From: Psychrobacter sp. GP33
GTDB taxonomy: Bacteria > Pseudomonadota > Gammaproteobacteria > Pseudomonadales > Moraxellaceae
DNA length: 64,000 nt
Direction of reading: 5' to 3'
NCBI RefSeq assembly: GCF_014119005.1
Contig: NZ_JACGYX010000002.1
Location: 434,001-498,000, forward strand
Shown: one piece after another, positions 30,302-41,811 of the stretch
Position numbering within the stretch: the first letter of the stretch is position 1
How the letters are laid out: each line of letters starts with the position of its first letter
Notes under the pieces: model-generated
Seen by the model: the letters and a program-made list of their open reading frames with translations, nothing else
What the model was told of the DNA's origin: nothing
The model's database searches: none
Position numbers and translations under genes: made by a program

Positions 30302-31096
30302 ATGTCGACTTCTAACCTATTGTGGTCATCGATGACCCTCACTGCCGCCCTCGCGCTTAGTGCCTGTAGCCCATCCCAAGATGCTTCTGATGCCAATGCT
30401 GATGCTGCCAATAATGGTGCTGCGAGCAAAACCTTACGTATCGCCACCGAAGGCGCGTACCCTCCGTTTAACTATACCAATGCGGATGGCAGTCTTGCTG
30501 GCTATGATATCGATGTTGCCAATGCGTTATGCGAAGAGATGAAAGTCAAATGTGAAATTGTCGCCCAAGAGTGGGATGGCATTATTCCCGGACTGTTGGC
30601 ACAAAAATACGATGCGGTGATTGCCGGTATGTCTATCACCCCTGAGCGTCAAGAAAAAGTAGATTTCACTGAGCCGTATTTTGCCAATACCATGGTATGG
30701 CTGACCGATACCAAAGGCAGCTTTGACCCAAAAACTATTAAAAATCTTACCCTTGGTGGTCAACGGTCAACCACGCCAGGCGCGTACTTACAAGATAATT
30801 ATGAAGGTAAAGACGGCAATACCGTGCAGCTGTATGATAACTATGACAATGCCTATTTAGACCTGAAATCAGGTCGTAGTGATGCCGTCTTAGCAGAAAA
30901 AGTCTCTGCAAAATCGTGGTTAAAAGACAACCCAGCAGGCTTTGGTATCGTCGGCGATGAGATTGACAATAACGACAATATTGCCATTGCTGTTCGTAAA
31001 GGTGATCCGCTGCAAAAAGACTTTAATAAAGCAATGAGTGCCATTCGTAGCAACGGTAAGCTGGCGTTACTTGAGCAGCAAAATTTCGGTCAATAG
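30302..31096 (+). CDS. Polar amino acid binding lipoprotein, paralog 1
   Basis: Periplasmic substrate-binding lipoprotein (SBP_bac_3 fold), 264 residues. The signal peptide ends in a lipobox LSAC (Cys about 22). The mature protein opens LRIATEGAYPPFNYTNADGSLAGYD. GMSITPERQEKVDFTEPY (about 102-119) contains the Arg that binds the substrate carboxylate. The overall pattern resembles lysine/arginine/ornithine/histidine binding proteins. It is the first of three tandem paralogs feeding one importer; the substrate cannot be fixed from sequence. Confidence 0.93.
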   Translation: MSTSNLLWSSMTLTAALALSACSPSQDASDANADAANNGAASKTLRIATEGAYPPFNYTNADGSLAGYDIDVANALCEEMKVKCEIVAQEWDGIIPGLLAQKYDAVIAGMSITPERQEKVDFTEPYFANTMVWLTDTKGSFDPKTIKNLTLGGQRSTTPGAYLQDNYEGKDGNTVQLYDNYDNAYLDLKSGRSDAVLAEKVSAKSWLKDNPAGFGIVGDEIDNNDNIAIAVRKGDPLQKDFNKAMSAIRSNGKLALLEQQNFGQ

Positions 31097-31221
31097 TTTA
31101 GTGGGTCAATAGGCTATTAACCAACTGCCTTTTTTGTACATCATCTTTGGGTTAGATATATTAGGGGTCAATAATTTGCAAGTCATCTACCTGTAAATTT
31201 ACTCATAAAGGAAAAACAACC

Positions 31222-32109
31222 ATGTCAATGTCAATCACTCATAAAGCCTTGTGGCTGGCCCCGCTTAGCGCTGCAATGCTCATGCTGGCGGGCTGTAGCA
31301 ATAGCACCACACCAGCCGAAGATGGCGCAGTCGATGCCACTGATGGTAAGCAATCTACGATAAAAATCGCTACCGAATCAAGCTACAAGCCCTTTAGCTA
31401 TACCGATGCCGATGGCAAACTTATCGGCTATGAGATTGAGCTGATTGAAGCCATGTGCGCGCAAATGAAAGCAGATTGCGATATTATTTCGCAAGACTGG
31501 GACGGTCTCATTCCAGGCTTAAATGCGCAAAAATTTGATGCGATTATGGCAGGTATCTCAATTACTCCTGAGCGCCAAGAAGTAATTGAATTCTCAGACC
31601 CTTACTTTTATACCAGTATTATTTTGATTGGTAAAAAAGGTGATGATGTCAATATTGACGCTTTAAAAGGTCAGCCGGTTGCCTCACAACGTGCCACGGT
31701 TGCCTCACAATATCTACAAGATGAACATGCTGAAGCAGACATCAAACTTTATGATACCCAAGACAATGCCTATTTAGACTTAACTTCAGGTCGCGTACGC
31801 GCCATGATGTCGGATAAAGTCACCGGTATTGATTGGTTAAAAACCCCTGCTGGCAAAGATTATGAAGTCAAAGGGCAAGAAATCACCACTGATAAAGATG
31901 CTATGGGTATTGGCTTCCGTAAAGGCGATCCATTAGTGGCTAAATTTAATAAAGCCCTTGCTGAAATCCGCGCTAATGGCACCTATGATCAAATCTCTGG
32001 CAGCTATTTTGGCACCAGCTCTACCGCTGCTGCTCAAAAAGCAGTTGTGAATGGTGCAGCAGCCGAAGCAGTCGCGCAAGAAGGTACAAATGCTGAGGTA
32101 GCAAAATAA
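31222..32109 (+). CDS. Polar amino acid binding lipoprotein, paralog 2
   Basis: Binding lipoprotein of 295 residues with lipobox LAGC (Cys about 25). It opens IKIATESSYKPFSYTDADGKLIGYEIEL, and GISITPERQEVIEFSDPY carries the conserved Arg. It is the most divergent of the three around the ligand pocket (ESSYKPF where the others have EGAYxPF), so it may prefer another amino acid. A C-terminal Ala-rich extension of about 25 residues, ending VAK, is shared in style with paralog 3. The start has AAAGGA upstream. Confidence 0.92.
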   Translation: MSMSITHKALWLAPLSAAMLMLAGCSNSTTPAEDGAVDATDGKQSTIKIATESSYKPFSYTDADGKLIGYEIELIEAMCAQMKADCDIISQDWDGLIPGLNAQKFDAIMAGISITPERQEVIEFSDPYFYTSIILIGKKGDDVNIDALKGQPVASQRATVASQYLQDEHAEADIKLYDTQDNAYLDLTSGRVRAMMSDKVTGIDWLKTPAGKDYEVKGQEITTDKDAMGIGFRKGDPLVAKFNKALAEIRANGTYDQISGSYFGTSSTAAAQKAVVNGAAAEAVAQEGTNAEVAK

Positions 32110-32203
32110 AGGTAGCGCATAGCAGTCAATGGTAATCATAGCCTGCGATAGTAATTAGTTATCATGCACGCCTAATAGTTTTTAACGTAATAGACAGTCA
32201 AGG

Positions 32204-33073
32204 ATGAATATGAGTAAATTTTTAAGTCCAATTCTAGCAAGTATTGCTGTCTGTACGTTAACGCTATCAGGCTGTAATCAGTCGCAAGATGGTGCTGATA
32301 AAAAAGCTACAGATATCGCTGATAATACGTCAGCAACGGGCGAAGTACTGCGTATTGGGACAGAAGGGGCGTATGCTCCTTTTAACTATACCAATGCTGA
32401 TGGGAGCTTAGGCGGTTTTGATGTAGAGATTGCAAACGCGCTGTGTGCCGATATGAAAGTCACTTGTGAGATTACTGCGCAAGACTGGGATGGTATTATT
32501 CCCGGGCTAAAAGCAGGCAAGTATGATGCGATCATAGCCGCGATGTCGGTCACGCCTGAGCGCTCGCAGCAAGTTGCCTTTACTGATCCGTATTTTAGCA
32601 ATACGTTGGTATTTTTAGCCAAAGCAGACAGCAAATTTGACCCTGCTCAAGACAGTCATATTAATGCTAATTCTATCGCCGCTCAGCGCGCCACCATCTC
32701 TTCACAGTGGTTTGAAAAAGCGTATCCAAAAGCCGATATGAAACTGTATGATACCCTGAGCAATGCCTTTTTGGACTTAGGTTCAGAGCGCGTTGATGCG
32801 ATGGTATCTGACAAACTACCAGCCATTCAATGGCTCAATTCACCTGCAGGCGACGGTTTTATTCTTAAAGGGGCTGAGATTGATATCAATGACAATTTTG
32901 CCATTGCTGTACGCCCCGGTGACGCGCTACAGGCTAAGATTAACGATTCTTTAGCCAATATCAAAGCCAACGGCACGTACGATAAAATTAATCAAAAATA
33001 CTTTGCCGTACCTGTAGAATCAAGTCCGTCTGCCAGTGTGCAAGCTGCACCAGTCGATAGCGTTGCAAAATAG
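32204..33073 (+). CDS. Polar amino acid binding lipoprotein, paralog 3
   Basis: Binding lipoprotein of 289 residues with lipobox LSGC (Cys about 24). It opens LRIGTEGAYAPFNYTNADGSLGGFDVE, close to paralog 1, and AMSVTPERSQQVAFTDPY carries the conserved Arg. The C-terminal tail is Pro/Ser/Ala-rich and ends VAK. Spacing from paralog 2 is 94 bases with no terminator seen, so the two are probably co-transcribed. A long gap with a hairpin separates it from the permeases. Confidence 0.93.
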   Translation: MNMSKFLSPILASIAVCTLTLSGCNQSQDGADKKATDIADNTSATGEVLRIGTEGAYAPFNYTNADGSLGGFDVEIANALCADMKVTCEITAQDWDGIIPGLKAGKYDAIIAAMSVTPERSQQVAFTDPYFSNTLVFLAKADSKFDPAQDSHINANSIAAQRATISSQWFEKAYPKADMKLYDTLSNAFLDLGSERVDAMVSDKLPAIQWLNSPAGDGFILKGAEIDINDNFAIAVRPGDALQAKINDSLANIKANGTYDKINQKYFAVPVESSPSASVQAAPVDSVAK

Positions 33074-34441: not shown

Positions 34442-35167
34442 ATGGATTGGAATTGGCAGGTTATTTTTGATCATATCCCAGACCTTTTGGGCGGTGCGGT
34501 ATTAACCGTACAATTAGTGGTGATATCCGGTATTGTCGGGTTATTTTTTGGACTTATTTTAGCGCAGCTGCGTTTGTCTAAAAGCTGGGCGGTACAGCTC
34601 TTACCCTTCTCTTATATTTTCTTTTTTCGGGGTACGCCGCTCTTAGTACAAATTTTCCTGATTTATTATGGTCTGGGGCAGTTTGAGTTTGTTCGTAATT
34701 CTTTCTTATGGGAGCCGGTGCTGAGTCAAGCATATTGGTGCGCCATTATTGCCTTTACTTTAAATACCAGTGCTTATTTAGCAGAGATTATTCGCGGTGC
34801 GATTCAGACCATTCCTGTGGGCGAGCTTGAAGCGGCAGACGCAATTGGTATGTCAAAGTGGCAGAAGCTCACACGTATTACCTTACCGCGCGCCTTTGGT
34901 ATCGTGATTCCGGCGTACAGCAATGAAGTGATTTTTATGCTCAAAGGTAGCGCCTTGGCATCGACGATTGCCTTAATGGATATTACTGGCGTTGCTCGTA
35001 CTATTAGTGCCCGTACTTATACCTTGATGGAATTGTTCTTTGCAGCAGGTATCGTCTATCTTTTATTATCATGGGTGATTTTGTTCAGTTTTAGACTGTT
35101 TGAAAAACGTATGAACCGCTATATGACCTATGTTCCACCTGAGGTACGTACGCCAAACGCCCTTTAG
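34442..35167 (+). CDS. Polar amino acid ABC transporter permease (HisM type)
   Basis: Second channel subunit, 241 residues, with the same architecture as its neighbour. Family features: LGGAVLTVQLVVISGIVGLFFG at the N-terminus, FFRGTPLLVQIFLIYYGLGQ (about 60-79), and the EAA coupling loop VGELEAADAIGMSKWQKLTRI. The start at 34442 follows GGGAAG closely. It is the last gene of the transporter cluster; no strong terminator hairpin follows it. Confidence 0.93.
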   Translation: MDWNWQVIFDHIPDLLGGAVLTVQLVVISGIVGLFFGLILAQLRLSKSWAVQLLPFSYIFFFRGTPLLVQIFLIYYGLGQFEFVRNSFLWEPVLSQAYWCAIIAFTLNTSAYLAEIIRGAIQTIPVGELEAADAIGMSKWQKLTRITLPRAFGIVIPAYSNEVIFMLKGSALASTIALMDITGVARTISARTYTLMELFFAAGIVYLLLSWVILFSFRLFEKRMNRYMTYVPPEVRTPNAL

Positions 35168-35442: not shown

Positions 35443-37272
35443 TTGAGTGAAATTTCAAACAAAAATCTTCAAGATTATCTAGATAAAAATTTAGATACCG
35501 CATCTAACGATAATATTAATGAAAGTTTAGATGATAAACTGGATAAGAGTTTAACTGAAACTTTAGATGACAATCTGAATGAGACTTTAAGTGAACACTT
35601 AACCAAAGATTCAAGTGAGAAAAAGAAAAAGAAGAAAAAAAAGAAAGCTCAGCCGGAACCGAGTACGGATATCAGCTTTGAAAAACCAAGTAAAGCTATC
35701 ACCGTTGAAGCAGACGCTAAAGCACCACTAGGAACATCAAAAGCAGTCGAAACCATGTTTCGCAATGCTTTACGTACCGAGCTTGATTTAATCGCGCTGG
35801 CTGCGACGAAAGCCAACATCATGATTTCGCTAAACGGCATTATCATCTCTGCCCTGATGATTTCTGGGGCATTTATCTTTGTCTCATCAGCCGCATTCTT
35901 GGTGCCAGCAGGCATGTTTATGTTTACTGCTGCCGCCTCTATCTTTTTTGCCATTCTTGCTGCTTCCCCTGAAAAAGCCCATTATTTCACTGGATTTTCT
36001 AAATGGTTTAAAGCCTTAATCAAACGTGAAGCGCATTTTCGTGATTTTCGTGAGTACTTAGCGCGCGCTAATCGCTCCTCAGATGGTGAAGTCAATCTGC
36101 TGATTAATAAAGATCGTATGCAATTGACGCGCGAAGAATACTGGGAGCGTATGCAGATTTTGATGCGTGATCGCGATGAGACGTATCATTCAATGAGTGA
36201 TCAGCTGTATTGGCTTGGACAAATTGCCGCGCGTAACGGCAAGATGCTGAATATATCTTACTCTATATTTCGCTGGGGTATGCTGTTCTCGGTATTAGCG
36301 TCTATTTTCTTAAAAGCATTACTGTTCTTTTATCCGGCAGCAGGCACCGAGGTTGTACCGCAGCTTGATGCTTCAGGTTTGGGTACACTAAATGCAGTTT
36401 ATGAGCCATCTGCAGTACAGCAACTGCCTGATGGTCGCGTGTTGGTGGCTGAAGATGAAGAACAGCGGGCGATGAATATTATGACGGTTGCGCCTGATGG
36501 CAGCTTAAGTGAAAATCCGGTCGCAAGCTTGCAGCTAACACGCAGCTTTGGACGCAAGCTTAATGACGTTGAAGGTTTAACGGCTGATGATAAAGGCTTT
36601 GTCTACGCAGTGACGTCACATTCATCGGATACCAGTGGCAAACGAGATCCAACACGTGAGCAGCTACTCAGATTCCGTGTCAATGGTAATATCGCAGGCG
36701 ACGTAGCAGCGGTCACCACCTTACGTGATGAGATGGTTAAATCGCCCATACTTGATGCCGCATTTAAAGCCCGTATGAATGCCAGCGTCAACTTTGATGA
36801 GCTGGATATTGAAGGCTTGGCCTATGACAATAGCACGCGCTCCATCCTGCTCGGACTACGTACACCAATGGCAGGCAAGTCGTCTATTATCGTACCGATT
36901 GTCAACTCAGAAGCGATGTTTACTAGTAACGCGCCGCCAGTCTTCGGTCAGCCCATTTTCCTTGATTTAAATGGTGGCGGTATTCGCTCGCTGTATTTTG
37001 ATCCAGTCTTAAGTATGTTCGTCATTGCCAATGAAATCAACGATACCGCTGGCAACAAGCAAGCACAGATATGGACGTGGTCAGGCAATCCTAAAGATAA
37101 GCCGGTAAAAATAGACACCCCAGAGTTAGCGCCTTTGCAAAACATTGAAGCAGTTGATTCTATTACTATCAACGGTACTATTAAGATGGTGTTTATGGCA
37201 GATGAAGGCGATGCGAAAAAAGCCGTTCATGCCCGTTACGTCATGCTTGATTACAAGAAATTTACCGATTAA
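35443..37272 (+). CDS. Pycsar-effector-like membrane domain fused to a DUF3616 beta-propeller
   Basis: A 609-residue membrane protein. Order: an N-terminal tail with imperfect LDDxLxxxL repeats (about 12-54); nine consecutive Lys (60-68); a PycTM-like module (about 105-297) with RTELDLIALAATKANIMISL running into helix 1, a second helix (about 152-174), a cytoplasmic helical stretch containing EEYWERMQILMRDRDETYHS and a third helix (about 276-297); then a DUF3616 domain (about 315-605). The DUF3616 part shows EPSAVQQLPDGRVLVAEDEE, DVEGLTADDKGFVYAVTSHS, LDIEGLAYD, LLGLRTPM and LDLNGGGIRSL. Three helices and a Lys-rich N-terminus predict a cytoplasmic N-terminus and a periplasmic propeller. The start is a TTG at 35443, since no in-frame ATG or GTG is better. 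No nucleotide cyclase gene lies nearby. Confidence 0.85.
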   Translation: MSEISNKNLQDYLDKNLDTASNDNINESLDDKLDKSLTETLDDNLNETLSEHLTKDSSEKKKKKKKKKAQPEPSTDISFEKPSKAITVEADAKAPLGTSKAVETMFRNALRTELDLIALAATKANIMISLNGIIISALMISGAFIFVSSAAFLVPAGMFMFTAAASIFFAILAASPEKAHYFTGFSKWFKALIKREAHFRDFREYLARANRSSDGEVNLLINKDRMQLTREEYWERMQILMRDRDETYHSMSDQLYWLGQIAARNGKMLNISYSIFRWGMLFSVLASIFLKALLFFYPAAGTEVVPQLDASGLGTLNAVYEPSAVQQLPDGRVLVAEDEEQRAMNIMTVAPDGSLSENPVASLQLTRSFGRKLNDVEGLTADDKGFVYAVTSHSSDTSGKRDPTREQLLRFRVNGNIAGDVAAVTTLRDEMVKSPILDAAFKARMNASVNFDELDIEGLAYDNSTRSILLGLRTPMAGKSSIIVPIVNSEAMFTSNAPPVFGQPIFLDLNGGGIRSLYFDPVLSMFVIANEINDTAGNKQAQIWTWSGNPKDKPVKIDTPELAPLQNIEAVDSITINGTIKMVFMADEGDAKKAVHARYVMLDYKKFTD

Positions 37273-37500
37273 CTAAACTGCAAAATAAGTATAAATAGAA
37301 AGGCGTTTAATATTAAATTGCCTTTTTATCCTGCGAATTATTATTCTTTTAGTACCCAAATCGTGTTATGAGTAAGCCGATAGCAATATTTGAGACAGAA
37401 AGAATCATTAAACAGACTATTGAGTTACTTTAACGCTTATAATTTATTTCCTGAGTATCCTTAGGGCGTTTTATAATAAGTCCTATACATCATTTTTACC

Positions 37501-38559
37501 ATGAGACGCTATATGAGCCAAGCACAGTCCAAAGCAACGTCCCCTTCAGTTCTTCGCTTAGCAATACTTGCATCCCTATTGACTGCTATTGTGGTCAGTC
37601 TATTTTTATTCTTTTATCCCAGCAGTTCGGTTAATGCTGCCTCATCGCCAGCTTTGACAAAAGATGGCATGGGCAAATTTAACGATATTTACGAGCCATC
37701 AGCAACCTTGCAGCTTCCAGATGGTCGCGTACTCATCGTTGAAGATGAAGAGCATCGTGCGTTAAATATTTTAAAGATTTCAGACAATGGCAGTCTGATT
37801 GAAAATGCAGACGATAACCTAAAGCTGAGTCAAGGATTTGAGCATAAGCTTGATGACTTAGAAGGATTAACGGCAGATCATAATGGTTTTATCTATATGA
37901 CCACCTCTCATTCTTCACTAAAAAATGGCAAACGTCGCCATAATCGTGAGCAGCTGATACGTTTTCGGGTTGTAGGCGATGCAGTACAAGACATCAACAG
38001 TGTGAGAACGTTACGTGATGAATTGTCGCAGTCAAAAACATTGGTAAAAGCCATTAAAGCAAAAACGGGTCAAGAGCCTGACTTTGATACCTTGAATATC
38101 GAGGGCTTAACCTATGCTCATAAAACCGATGATTTGCTGCTAGGTTTGCGCGCCCCGATGGCAGGCGAGTCTGCTATTATCGTGCCGATTGAAAACCCAG
38201 CAGAAGTGTTTGAGAAAAATGCAGCGCCTGTATTTGGCAAGCCTATTTTCCTTAATCTAGGCGGCGGTGGTATTCGCTCTTTACACTTTAGTACTATTTT
38301 GAATAAGTTTGTGATTGCCAATGAAATTCCTGATGATAAAGGCAAAGACTTCTCAAAAATTTGGACATGGAGTGGCAACCCTAACGACGCGCCTATTCCT
38401 GTTAATTTACCTGAATTATCAGATTTGAAAAATATCGAAGGCATTGATTCAGTAAAAGTAAATGGGGTTGCCAAACTACTATTTACCGCTGATGAAGGCA
38501 ATGAGAAAAAAGAAATCGCCGCAAAATATCGTTTTGTAGATGAAGCCAAGTTTAAGTAG
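37501..38559 (+). CDS. Membrane-anchored DUF3616 beta-propeller, paralog of the upstream fusion
   Basis: A 352-residue protein that keeps only the last helix and propeller of the upstream gene. One N-terminal helix (about 18-40) ends in LFFYPSS, matching LFFYPAA of the neighbour. A DUF3616 domain follows (about 55-350) with EPSATLQLPDGRVLIVEDEE, DLEGLTADHNGFIYMTTSHS, LNIEGLTYA, LLGLRAPM and LNLGGGGIRSL. The helix probably anchors the propeller in the periplasm. It probably arose by tandem duplication. The start could be ATG 37501 or 37513. DUF3616 has no proven activity that I know of; resemblance to phytase/esterase-like propellers is only structural. Confidence 0.85.
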   Translation: MRRYMSQAQSKATSPSVLRLAILASLLTAIVVSLFLFFYPSSSVNAASSPALTKDGMGKFNDIYEPSATLQLPDGRVLIVEDEEHRALNILKISDNGSLIENADDNLKLSQGFEHKLDDLEGLTADHNGFIYMTTSHSSLKNGKRRHNREQLIRFRVVGDAVQDINSVRTLRDELSQSKTLVKAIKAKTGQEPDFDTLNIEGLTYAHKTDDLLLGLRAPMAGESAIIVPIENPAEVFEKNAAPVFGKPIFLNLGGGGIRSLHFSTILNKFVIANEIPDDKGKDFSKIWTWSGNPNDAPIPVNLPELSDLKNIEGIDSVKVNGVAKLLFTADEGNEKKEIAAKYRFVDEAKFK

Positions 38560-38623: not shown

Positions 38624-39349
38624 ATGAGCCAATCTTCACACACTCCGATTGCCGACTTGATTGTAGATAGCGTCAATATTAGTGATGAAAATGTAGTGGA
38701 TAAAGATATCAGTCACACGGCGCATCGGACGATTGGCAAAGTCGTTTGTGTGGGGCGTAACTATGCCGCTCATGCGCGTGAATTGGGTAATGAAGTACCG
38801 ACGTCACCGCTACTATTTATGAAGCCTTCTTCTTGTGTTGTTGCTGCTCAAAATACCTTGGTTCGTCCAAATCCTACTGTTTTTGGTGAAACCCATTATG
38901 AGGCAGAGCTTTGCATTCAGTTATCTGCTGACTTAAGTAACGCAACTATTGAACAGGCAAAAATTGCTATTGGTGGCGTCACTTTGGGGCTGGATTTAAC
39001 CTTACGCGATTTGCAAACCAAGCTGAAGGACAAAGGTCAGCCGTGGGAGCGTGCCAAGAGTTTTGACGGTGCGTGTGTGCTTGCAGATTGGGTTGACCCG
39101 CAAGCCTTTGGTGATTTTACGCAAGTGCGTTATCAGCTCTATATTAATGATGTGCTTAAGCAAGATGGCGATAGCGCGTTGATGCTGTTTCCGGTGTATA
39201 AATTGCTTGCTGAGATTAGTCATGCTTTTAGTTTACAAGCAGGCGATGTAATTATGACCGGTACGCCAAGCGGTGTTGGTGTCTTGCAAGCGGATGATGA
39301 GTTGCGTTTGGTATTGGATACACATGAGTGGCAAATGCGCGTCGCATAA
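38624..39349 (+). CDS. Fumarylacetoacetate hydrolase (FAH) family protein
   Basis: Cytoplasmic enzyme of the FAH superfamily, 241 residues. The C-terminal FAH fold begins at GKVVCVGRNYAAHARELGN (about 38-56) and holds LLFMKPSS, the metal-binding HYEAELCIQL (about 89-98), and MTGTPSGVGVLQ near the end. The family includes fumarylpyruvate hydrolases, acylpyruvases and oxaloacetate decarboxylases; the exact reaction cannot be decided here. An N-terminal stretch of about 35 residues looks disordered. It has its own terminator. Confidence 0.9.
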   Translation: MSQSSHTPIADLIVDSVNISDENVVDKDISHTAHRTIGKVVCVGRNYAAHARELGNEVPTSPLLFMKPSSCVVAAQNTLVRPNPTVFGETHYEAELCIQLSADLSNATIEQAKIAIGGVTLGLDLTLRDLQTKLKDKGQPWERAKSFDGACVLADWVDPQAFGDFTQVRYQLYINDVLKQDGDSALMLFPVYKLLAEISHAFSLQAGDVIMTGTPSGVGVLQADDELRLVLDTHEWQMRVA

Positions 39350-39585: not shown

Positions 39586-41811
39586 ATGACTTTATCACAT
39601 CATAAACAAAATCTTGCTCACGAAGAAATTGAAGACTCGAATCCTAGTAATAATATTGATTTTCAAACCATTATTAGTCGCCGCTTAAACCGTCGCAGTT
39701 TGTTAAAAGGGGGTACTGGATTGACCGCCGCTGCATTTTTCGGCACTTTACCGTTGGTAGGCTGTAATAGCGAGGACAGTAAGCCTAATGGACGTCCCAT
39801 TATTAAAAATGATAATACTGCGGCTATTCCTGCCTCGGGTACATTAAACCGCCCTGAAAGCTTAAAGTTTAAAGCAGTTGCCCATTCTAAAGCGGCGGAG
39901 ATGAGCGTGGCAGCAGGCTATAAGGCAGAGATAATATTGCCGCTTGGTATGCCTCTTATTTCTGGCATTGATGATTGGAAGGACAATCGCGAGCAATCGG
40001 CTGAGTCGTTTGAATGGCGTATGGGCGATAACCATGATGGCATGTGGTTCTTTGGCAAAAACGGTGCCGCTTATGACCCAAAAGCTTCGGATAATGGGCT
40101 ACTAGTCATGAACCATGAATATGTGAATAGCGCTGAGCTAAGTCCATTTGGTTACCATTTAATCAAAGATAACAATGCTGCGCCTATCTTTAAGAATCGT
40201 AGGCTTGCCAGTGATGTACGCCGTGAGGTCAATTGTCATGGGGTTGCCGTAGTTGAAATGAAGCGCCGAACTAATGGCAGCGGTTATGAGATCGTACCCA
40301 ATTCAAAGTATCATCGCCGTATTACCAGCAGTACGGTGGCGCAATTGACGGGTCCAGTAGCAGGCTCTGATTTGGTCAAAACCAAATTTGACCCGACTGG
40401 CTTGCAAACACGCGGCATTAATAATAACTGCGGTGCAGGTCTGTCACCTTGGGGCACGTATTTGACCACTGAAGAGAACTTCTTAGGTGTCTTTGCGCGT
40501 GGTCAAGATGCCAGCCAACTGACGCCAGGGCATAATTATGGTCGAGAGCGTTATGGCGCAAAAAAGGATTTCCCAGGTTTTGGGTATTTATGGCATACGC
40601 CCGAAGCCAAAGACGCCAAAATAATGGATGAATTTTCCCGTTGGGACATGACCGCAGTTGGTGTCACGGCAGCGGATGACTATCGCAATGGCTTTAATAC
40701 CTTTGGCTATATCACGGAGATTGATCCTTTTGACCCGCAGTCTGTCCCGCAAAAGCGCACCGCATTGGGTCGTTTTGCTCATGAAAACTGCGCCTATGCG
40801 CCGGTTGAGCAAGGCAAGCCAATTGTCTTTTATATGGGTGATGACGCGAGGGGCGAATATATTTATAAATTTGTCTCCAAAGCCACGTGGTCAAATAATG
40901 ATATTGGTGGCGGTCTAAAAGCCGGTAGCAAATATATGGATGACGGCACCTTATACGTTGCGGTGTTTAATGACGATGGCAGCGGTCGTTGGCAGCCACT
41001 TATCCATGGTCAAAATGGACTGAATAGCTCTAATAGTAAATTGCCTTTTAATGGACAAGACGAAGTATTAATATTTGCACGCGCAGCGGCAGATGTGCTC
41101 GGCGCCACCAAAATGGATCGTCCAGAATGGGTATCAGTCAGCCCAATTACGGGTGAGGTTTATGTGACCTTAACCAATAATAAATATCGTGGTGTCAGTG
41201 ATGACCAGCCAGTATCGGCAACCAATCCACGCAGTTATGAGACGCCCGGTAAAGCCCGTGGTAATGACAATGGTCACATTATACGCTGGGCAGAAACGGA
41301 CGGCGACCATGCAGCAACGAGCTTTGAATGGGATATTTATTTGTTTGCTGCGCCCCATGATTTAGCCGCTGAAAATCTCTCAAAACTCACGAACAATAAT
41401 GATTTTTCATCCCCAGACGGCTTATATTTTGACCCGCGTGGGGTACTGTGGATTCAAACCGATGATGGCGCATATACCGACACCAGCAGCTGTATGTTGC
41501 TTGCTGCACTGCCCGGTAAGGTGAGTGATGGCGCGCTAACCATCACGACCGCAGGGCAACAAACCCGCGTTGGCATGCCGGCCAATAATGACAATATCAA
41601 ACGTTTTTTTGTTGGACCAGAAGGCTGTGAGGTAACTGGTATTACCTTGACCCCGGATTTTAAGACGCTGTTTATTAACATTCAACATCCGGGCAATCAA
41701 TGGGGCGCCGTTGCAGGTGGCAAAATACCGCGTTCAGCCACAGTGATGATTACTAAAGAAGATGGCGATGTGATTTTAGCAGAATCATTTGCGCCTGCAA
41801 GTGCCAGTTAA
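39586..41811 (+). CDS. PhoX-like phosphatase (DUF839) with Tat signal
   Basis: Predicted exported phosphatase of the PhoX/DUF839 family, 741 residues. The twin-arginine motif RRSLLK (36-41) is followed by a hydrophobic run and Cys60 in LVGC, so it may be a Tat lipoprotein. Family motifs are LLVMNHEYVN (about 168-177), CGAGLSPWGTYLTTEENFLG (about 284-303) and SPDGLYFDPRGVLWIQTD near 606-623. PhoX enzymes use calcium and iron to release phosphate from phosphomonoesters in the periplasm. No Pho box or pst genes are visible nearby. Monocistronic with a terminator. Confidence 0.9.
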   Translation: MTLSHHKQNLAHEEIEDSNPSNNIDFQTIISRRLNRRSLLKGGTGLTAAAFFGTLPLVGCNSEDSKPNGRPIIKNDNTAAIPASGTLNRPESLKFKAVAHSKAAEMSVAAGYKAEIILPLGMPLISGIDDWKDNREQSAESFEWRMGDNHDGMWFFGKNGAAYDPKASDNGLLVMNHEYVNSAELSPFGYHLIKDNNAAPIFKNRRLASDVRREVNCHGVAVVEMKRRTNGSGYEIVPNSKYHRRITSSTVAQLTGPVAGSDLVKTKFDPTGLQTRGINNNCGAGLSPWGTYLTTEENFLGVFARGQDASQLTPGHNYGRERYGAKKDFPGFGYLWHTPEAKDAKIMDEFSRWDMTAVGVTAADDYRNGFNTFGYITEIDPFDPQSVPQKRTALGRFAHENCAYAPVEQGKPIVFYMGDDARGEYIYKFVSKATWSNNDIGGGLKAGSKYMDDGTLYVAVFNDDGSGRWQPLIHGQNGLNSSNSKLPFNGQDEVLIFARAAADVLGATKMDRPEWVSVSPITGEVYVTLTNNKYRGVSDDQPVSATNPRSYETPGKARGNDNGHIIRWAETDGDHAATSFEWDIYLFAAPHDLAAENLSKLTNNNDFSSPDGLYFDPRGVLWIQTDDGAYTDTSSCMLLAALPGKVSDGALTITTAGQQTRVGMPANNDNIKRFFVGPEGCEVTGITLTPDFKTLFINIQHPGNQWGAVAGGKIPRSATVMITKEDGDVILAESFAPASAS

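Follow-up and report, generated by a model that had tools for sequence, protein, structure and literature searches.

A PycTM-DUF3616 fusion and its propeller-only tandem duplicate in Psychrobacter: origin, conservation and a tentative link through a shared ligand

RESULTS

The fusion gene and its propeller-only neighbor

The window, a stretch of 64,000 nucleotides from a contig of Psychrobacter sp. GP33 (NZ_JACGYX010000002.1), carries two consecutive genes on the forward strand, to which we refer as the fusion and the solo. Based on the ORF call, Pfam, BLASTP, and the hydrophobicity segments, the first gene (35443 to 37272, + strand) encodes a PycTM-DUF3616 fusion of 609 amino acids, which consists of a charged and variable N-tail (residues 1 to 95), a PycTM module (about residues 96 to 297), and a propeller (about residues 304 to 609; 36352 to 37269, + strand; delimited by Pfam, BLASTP, and the tree). 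Its predicted start is a TTG, the first possible start codon of the reading frame, as is the case in all eight intact fusions, including the gene in the window. The N-tail is strongly variable, with a Lys-rich run at its end. Hydrophobic segments 1 and 2 (residues 133 to 151 and 156 to 174; 35839 to 35964, + strand) make up the PycTM hairpin, while segment 3 (residues 278 to 296; 36274 to 36330, + strand) is the helix that the fusion has in common with the solo. The fusion scored 45.2 bits against the Pfam profile of PycTM (PF18967; cut-off 27.2), 37.7 bits against the PADLOC PycTM profile, and 27.7 bits against DUF3616 (PF12275; cut-off 20.6).

The solo (37501 to 38559, + strand) starts with ATG and encodes a protein of 352 amino acids that scored 27.2 bits against DUF3616 (cut-off 20.6) and begins with a hydrophobic leader (residues 20 to 38; 37558 to 37614, + strand) homologous to helix 3 of the fusion. 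In BLASTP, residues 14 to 351 of the solo match residues 272 to 607 of the fusion with 176 identities over 338 positions (52%; E 4e-126), i.e., from the third hydrophobic helix of the fusion to its end. A preceding sequence-only reading had described this 352-residue neighbor as a propeller-only paralogue without the PycTM module, and both parts of that description hold: the alignment spans helix 3 and the propeller, and the solo has no PycTM match in Pfam at E ≤ 10. The shared motifs listed there (LFFYP, EPSA..QLPDGRVL, EGLTAD, LGLR.PM, and GGGIRSL) all lie inside the alignment. Within the genome of the window, the solo matches only the fusion and itself, and the fusion is the sole match to PF18967. 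The solo has no match to Phytase-like (PF13449) in Pfam at E ≤ 10, stays at 14.3 bits against SdiA-regulated/YjiK (PF06977), under the family cut-off of 21, and finds no solved structure by sequence at E ≤ 10. In NCBIfam, no score came close to a cut-off.

The pair occupies one fixed site in a minority of Psychrobacter genomes

Pfam and the comparison with relatives place the pair between a gene for an ABC permease (BPD_transp_1; 34442 to 35167, + strand), which forms the left border of the site, and a gene for an FAA hydrolase (38624 to 39349, + strand), which forms the right border. This arrangement, with the fusion first and both genes on the same strand, is found in all eight carriers, among them P. 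frigidicola (G016), Psychrobacter sp. TAE2020 (G076), a Psychrobacter metagenome-assembled genome (G080), and P. urativorans (G101). With the solo as the query, 10 of 105 Psychrobacter genomes match: eight hold intact pairs, G103 holds fragments, and G027 holds a tail fragment. With the fusion as the query, 9 of 299 genomes sampled from the family (16 genera) match, all of them Psychrobacter. One intact gene without the other was not found in any genome examined. Presence or absence of the pair in related genomes had been named in the sequence-only reading as a check on the duplication; the pair is indeed conserved, being intact in 8 of the 105 genomes.

We surveyed the site itself in 103 of these genomes, leaving out G049 (no permease match at the threshold) and G087 (the contig ends there). 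Besides the eight intact pairs, the survey returned a relic of both genes in G103, relics of the solo tail in G027 and G028, 87 genomes in which the permease and the hydrolase are direct neighbors without a relic at E ≤ 0.01, and five genomes with neither the hydrolase in reach nor a relic. On the permease gene tree, the carriers and relics require at least five changes, and the relics stand beside carriers (G103 with G000, G016, and G102; G027 and G028 with G076 and G101). The simplest reading is that the pair was inherited and repeatedly lost; transfer at this one site between members of the genus is a possible alternative. An origin from a mobile element within the genus is not supported, given the single fixed site and the absence of a match in the phage collection; no match was confirmed in viral contigs with strict patterns, and plasmids gave only four DUF3616 matches, all weak. 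A scan of genome contigs with strict patterns returned four loci, all in Psychrobacter, a count that is no measure of absence elsewhere.

In G017, alone among the carriers, the solo and the hydrolase are separated by two extra genes on the opposite strand (L040:10433-12491); by eye, they are esterase-like and methyltransferase-like. Upstream of two permeases in the window are three tandem paralogous genes for solute-binding proteins (30302 to 33073), and this trio is matched in order in the nine relatives read. In the window, G017, and G102, the hydrolase gene is followed by one for a PhoX-type phosphatase (39586 to 41811), which has no match in the stretches read from the other seven relatives.

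The solo is a truncated duplicate of a fusion

In a tree of the 16 Psychrobacter propellers, a single branch splits fusions from solos (support 94/91). In a tree rooted with six propellers from other genera (G1198, G1027, two of G1371, G1208, and G1093; weaker matches were left out), the 16 propellers group together (100/99), and G1198 is their sister. With all rows included, the fusions are supported at 67/31 and the solos at 89/88; the solo of G011 is a long branch, and without it, both clades reach 100/100. The duplication noted in the sequence-only reading is thus recovered as one tandem event with the two copies on either side of one branch, and the two propellers, rather than branching far apart, are sister clades in the rooted tree.

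Fusions also occur outside the genus. In G1198, from the same phylum and another class, the fusion is full-length (54% over 519 amino acids) and is the sole match in that genome, and G1027, from the same class, has a fusion with 32% over 559 amino acids. No second propeller was found near the latter in the ORFs of a 19-kb stretch, and among 23 genomes of the G1027 family, many of them incomplete, only G822 gave another match, a weak propeller. Both of these single-copy fusions branch outside the two Psychrobacter clades; therefore, a PycTM-DUF3616 fusion was ancestral, and its truncated duplicate is the solo. As judged from the sequences and trees, the duplication took place in the Psychrobacter line and started from a fusion, and the solo subsequently lost the PycTM hairpin. 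The solo is a duplicate older than the species split. An order in which the solo is older than the fusion was rejected, because forcing all 10 fusions into a clade without the solos costs 59 lnL (p-AU 0.0002); grouping the Psychrobacter fusions with G1198 as a clade was likewise rejected (13 lnL; p-AU 0.009).

Both propellers are under purifying selection and retain conserved polar positions

Based on ratios that are rough, as many dS values exceed 1, dN/dS of the solo ranged from 0.062 to 0.170 in seven of eight comparisons, the eighth being saturated, and dN/dS of the fusion propeller ranged from 0.033 to 0.108 in seven of eight. The solo had the higher value in six of the seven shared comparisons, the exception being G076-G101. 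Both the fusion and the solo are therefore under purifying selection.

Conserved positions were counted over 11 propellers from outside the genus, which include two close pairs (G1371a/b and G1221/G1295). Of 29 columns conserved among them with no more than one exception, 24 are retained in every one of the eight solos and 23 in every one of the eight fusions. Importantly, every one of the 14 conserved polar positions (in solo numbering S67, D82, E83, D119, E121, S136, H137, R149, E201, R217, N232, R259, E313, and D331) is kept in all eight solos and all eight fusions. In the solo model, 12 of these positions (all except R149 and N232) fall at strand starts or ends, blade after blade, and may thus line one face of the propeller. 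Only two positions differ in a fixed manner between the eight solos and the eight fusions; at five positions, all fusions keep the residue of G1198 and no solo does, while the reverse is true at one position. The retention of all 14 polar positions argues that the solo is not a dead copy, and from the sequences, the retained positions would fit a shared ligand. The higher dN/dS of the solo and the five-versus-one imbalance in lost positions are also compatible with the solo having a task of its own.

The spacer allows separate transcription in the window and one transcript in two relatives

The fusion and the solo are separated by 228 bp in the window and by 30 to 228 bp over the eight pairs, with the spacers of G017 and G080 being only 36 and 30 bp. 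The spacer in the window contains a hairpin (37295 to 37329, + strand) whose 3' arm ends in a U-run and which is a possible terminator; its predicted energy is −12.1 kcal/mol (z −3.85), and none of 200 shuffles was as low. This hairpin is absent from the output of a scan for consensus terminators. Further downstream, a TATAAT box read by eye (37472 to 37477, + strand) is a possible −10 element of a solo promoter; the spacers of G016 and G102, also read by eye, show the same box, and it is absent from the output of the promoter scan. Given the hairpin, the fusion and the solo are possibly separate transcription units in this genome. The short spacers of G017 and G080, on the other hand, suggest one transcript for both genes in these two genomes.

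The solo is probably a five-bladed propeller, and both propellers are most likely periplasmic

The structure model of the solo, computed from 10 sequences, has a pLDDT of 81.7 and a pTM of 0.79. In Foldseek alone, other propellers rank first, with TM-scores of 0.3 to 0.45; after re-alignment of the Foldseek matches, YjiK of E. coli (3qqz) ranks first (Z 19.9; 226 residues; 3.0 Å), followed by glutaminyl cyclase (Z 18.8), mannobiose phosphorylase (16.8), and human apyrase (16.7). The label "propeller", given in the sequence-only reading, is thus backed by the model and its best re-aligned solved match, and from the strand list and the matches, we suggest that the fold is probably a five-bladed propeller. 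The model of the fusion is poor (pLDDT 50.7) and too weak for any structural claim on the membrane part.

All eight fusions have three hydrophobic segments, and all eight solos have one N-terminal segment; four solos (G011, G016, G076, and G101) have a second, marginal hydrophobic peak inside the propeller. The Lys-rich N-tail suggests that the fusion would be oriented with the N-tail in and the propeller out, and together with the three segments of the fusion and the one segment of the solo, it makes a periplasmic location of both propellers the most likely one. A motif resembling a signal peptidase site follows the hydrophobic leader in all eight solos and helix 3 in four of the eight fusions. 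Because the motif is also present in these fusions, it does not separate a "soluble decoy" from an "anchored partner".

No cyclase lies beside the pair

We profiled the neighbors of the pair in the window, eight with Pfam and eight with PADLOC, and found no cyclase among them. By Pfam, the eight are transport, metabolic, and chaperone genes; PADLOC returned nothing for seven of eight and a weak match (14.8 bits; E 0.003) for a lipase-like gene. By eye, there is no cyclase among the extra genes of G017 either. The genome of the window has one PF00211 cyclase domain, on another contig, and such domains occur in 88 of the 105 Psychrobacter genomes, including seven of the eight carriers; in the remaining carrier, G017, nothing matched at E ≤ 0.001, which is to be read with the fact that PF00211 misses some PycC. 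It is indeed a blunt probe, finding the cyclase of G103 only weakly and not listing the PycC of G088.

PF18967 matches 12 of the 105 genomes: the eight carriers, G103 (in a separate small gene), G088, G023, and G060. In G103 (L217:4594-6374) and G088 (L218:3997-5279), a small PycTM gene directly precedes a PADLOC match to PycC (430.5 and 288.5 bits, respectively), and these two loci are likely true Pycsar pairs. A Pycsar operon was rejected at the fusion locus, which, in contrast to G103 and G088, has no cyclase among the neighbors profiled. G103 combines a small PycTM-PycC pair with a decayed fusion-solo pair.

PycTM and DUF3616 genes outside the genus

In two genomes of one genus from another family (G1221 and G1295), about 0.6 to 0.9 kb separate a PycTM-only gene from a DUF3616 gene on the opposite strand, and a PAS-domain gene stands between the two (L107:6393-8813 and L108:92-2711; PAS profile applied to G1221 alone). 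This near-adjacency hints at joint work of the two parts and counts as one independent case, which is not an operon. G1246, the last of the three genomes of this genus (g510) with a DUF3616 match, is 74% complete and gave no PycTM match. More generally, proteins with DUF3616 and no PycTM part are also found outside Psychrobacter. Two DUF3616 propellers of G1371 (L103:7045-8007 and L104:7827-8747) also match Pfam Phytase-like.

In published work, a Xanthomonas DUF3616 gene is placed among biofilm-related genes (PMC3130047), and a DUF3616 gene is termed "possibly a Phytase" (PMC8052667). Within the literature searched, we found no paper mentioning both DUF3616 and PycTM, none with both "beta-propeller" and "Pycsar effector", and none joining Psychrobacter and Pycsar.

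DISCUSSION

Here, we present an analysis of a PycTM-DUF3616 fusion and its downstream propeller-only paralogue. Based on the sequences and trees, an old fusion was partly duplicated in tandem in an ancestor of part of Psychrobacter, and the downstream copy lost the PycTM hairpin, keeping helix 3 as a leader together with the propeller. The fact that the genes are found together suggests joint work, and from their common duplication and co-occurrence, it is likely that the fusion and the solo work together. We speculate that the fusion acts as an outside-in receptor, in which the propeller would bind a small ligand in a putative conserved polar funnel on one face and might alter the state of the PycTM membrane module. 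The solo could bind the same ligand or the heads of the fusion and thereby tune the output as a competitor or co-receptor. Our best guess, which we advance tentatively, is that the solo is such a shared-ligand modulator of the fusion. In its favor, the pair is intact in 8 of 105 genomes and never reduced to one intact gene, the site and order are constant, the propellers are sister clades under purifying selection with all 14 polar positions kept, and PycTM and DUF3616 recur as near-adjacent separate genes in another genus (G1221 and G1295). Against it, genes only 30 to 228 bp apart could be lost jointly by simple linkage, the hairpin in the window lies between the genes, dN/dS of the solo is higher in six of seven comparisons, no solo turned up with either single-copy fusion elsewhere, and G1246 has DUF3616 without a PycTM match.

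It is quite possible, if again short of an even chance, that the solo is an independent periplasmic protein with its own task, perhaps a propeller enzyme of the YjiK or phytase type, and that adjacency is a trace of its origin. The higher dN/dS, the five positions at which only the fusions keep the G1198 residue against one the other way, the possible promoter of its own, and the possible terminator between the genes would all agree with this; the full set of conserved polar residues would fit an active site as well, and PycTM-less DUF3616 proteins exist outside the genus, two of them also matching Phytase-like. However, the solo is never intact without the fusion in the 105 genomes of the genus, only two fixed differences set the eight solos apart from the eight fusions, and the solo itself has no Phytase-like match at E ≤ 10. 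A hetero-oligomer, in which solo propellers are obligate accessory subunits of the periplasmic head of the fusion, would account for the co-occurrence and for the single transcript suggested by the spacers of 30 to 36 bp in G017 and G080; we consider it unlikely, as the searches around the single-copy fusions of G1198 and G1027 turned up no solo, which argues that a fusion can do without a solo, and as transcription is possibly separate in the window.

Two further explanations are highly improbable. Decay of the solo into a non-functional remnant of the fusion is a thought prompted by its missing domain and by the relics in G103, G027, and G028; yet its frame is open in all eight carriers, and its dN/dS of 0.06 to 0.17 in seven of eight comparisons together with the intact polar positions led us to reject a dead copy. 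We see equally little reason to regard the fusion as the cyclic-pyrimidine-gated effector of a canonical Pycsar antiphage system, as the Pfam and PADLOC matches to PycTM (45.2 and 37.7 bits) might imply. No cyclase was found among the profiled neighbors in the window; PF00211 occurs only on another contig and is missing from G017, which is weak evidence because PF00211 misses some PycC, and a distant cyclase is possible; the site is fixed amid transport and metabolic genes, with no phage match and only the four weak plasmid matches to DUF3616; and true small PycTM-PycC pairs occur elsewhere in the genus.

The shared-ligand modulator remains our preferred reading. The PycTM module is known as a cyclic-nucleotide-gated killing effector. 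A more far-reaching scenario, which we regard as speculative and rather doubtful as a whole, is that this killing effector was rewired, without a dedicated cyclase, into an outside-in receptor by a periplasmic propeller and that a soluble propeller-only antagonist or co-receptor then evolved by tandem duplication in Psychrobacter. If true, a sensor-like head placed across the membrane, the lack of a cyclase beside it, and a head-only sibling would mean that PycTM can be driven from the cell exterior, and a functional context would be gained for the uncharacterized DUF3616 family. The solo would offer a natural handle for finding the ligand and for testing the PycTM switch.

Pycsar is described as a cyclase plus PycTM or PycTIR, with PycTM being the receptor of a cyclic pyrimidine from the infected cell that breaks membrane integrity (both as given in PMC11224242). 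The hairpin and third helix of the fusion match the Pfam (PF18967) and PADLOC profiles of this membrane effector; however, the fusion runs on into a propeller, whereas the PycTM genes of G103 and G088 end there (184 and 177 amino acids), and its locus differs from Pycsar in having no cyclase. Both propellers pass the curated cut-off of DUF3616 (PF12275), with the difference that here one copy is joined to PycTM and its tandem sibling keeps just the last PycTM helix. YjiK (PDB 3qqz), of the SdiA-regulated family (PF06977), is the best re-aligned solved structure and has the same fold as the solo model, but the sequence score of the solo stays below the cut-off of that family (14.3 versus 21 bits). 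Finally, pairs of a receptor and a soluble decoy consist of a full receptor plus a copy without the signaling part. "Receptor and decoy", the comparison drawn in the sequence-only reading, is one option among several by analogy: the fusion would correspond to the full receptor and the solo to the copy without the signaling part, with a common ligand, release from the membrane, and competition as presumed features.
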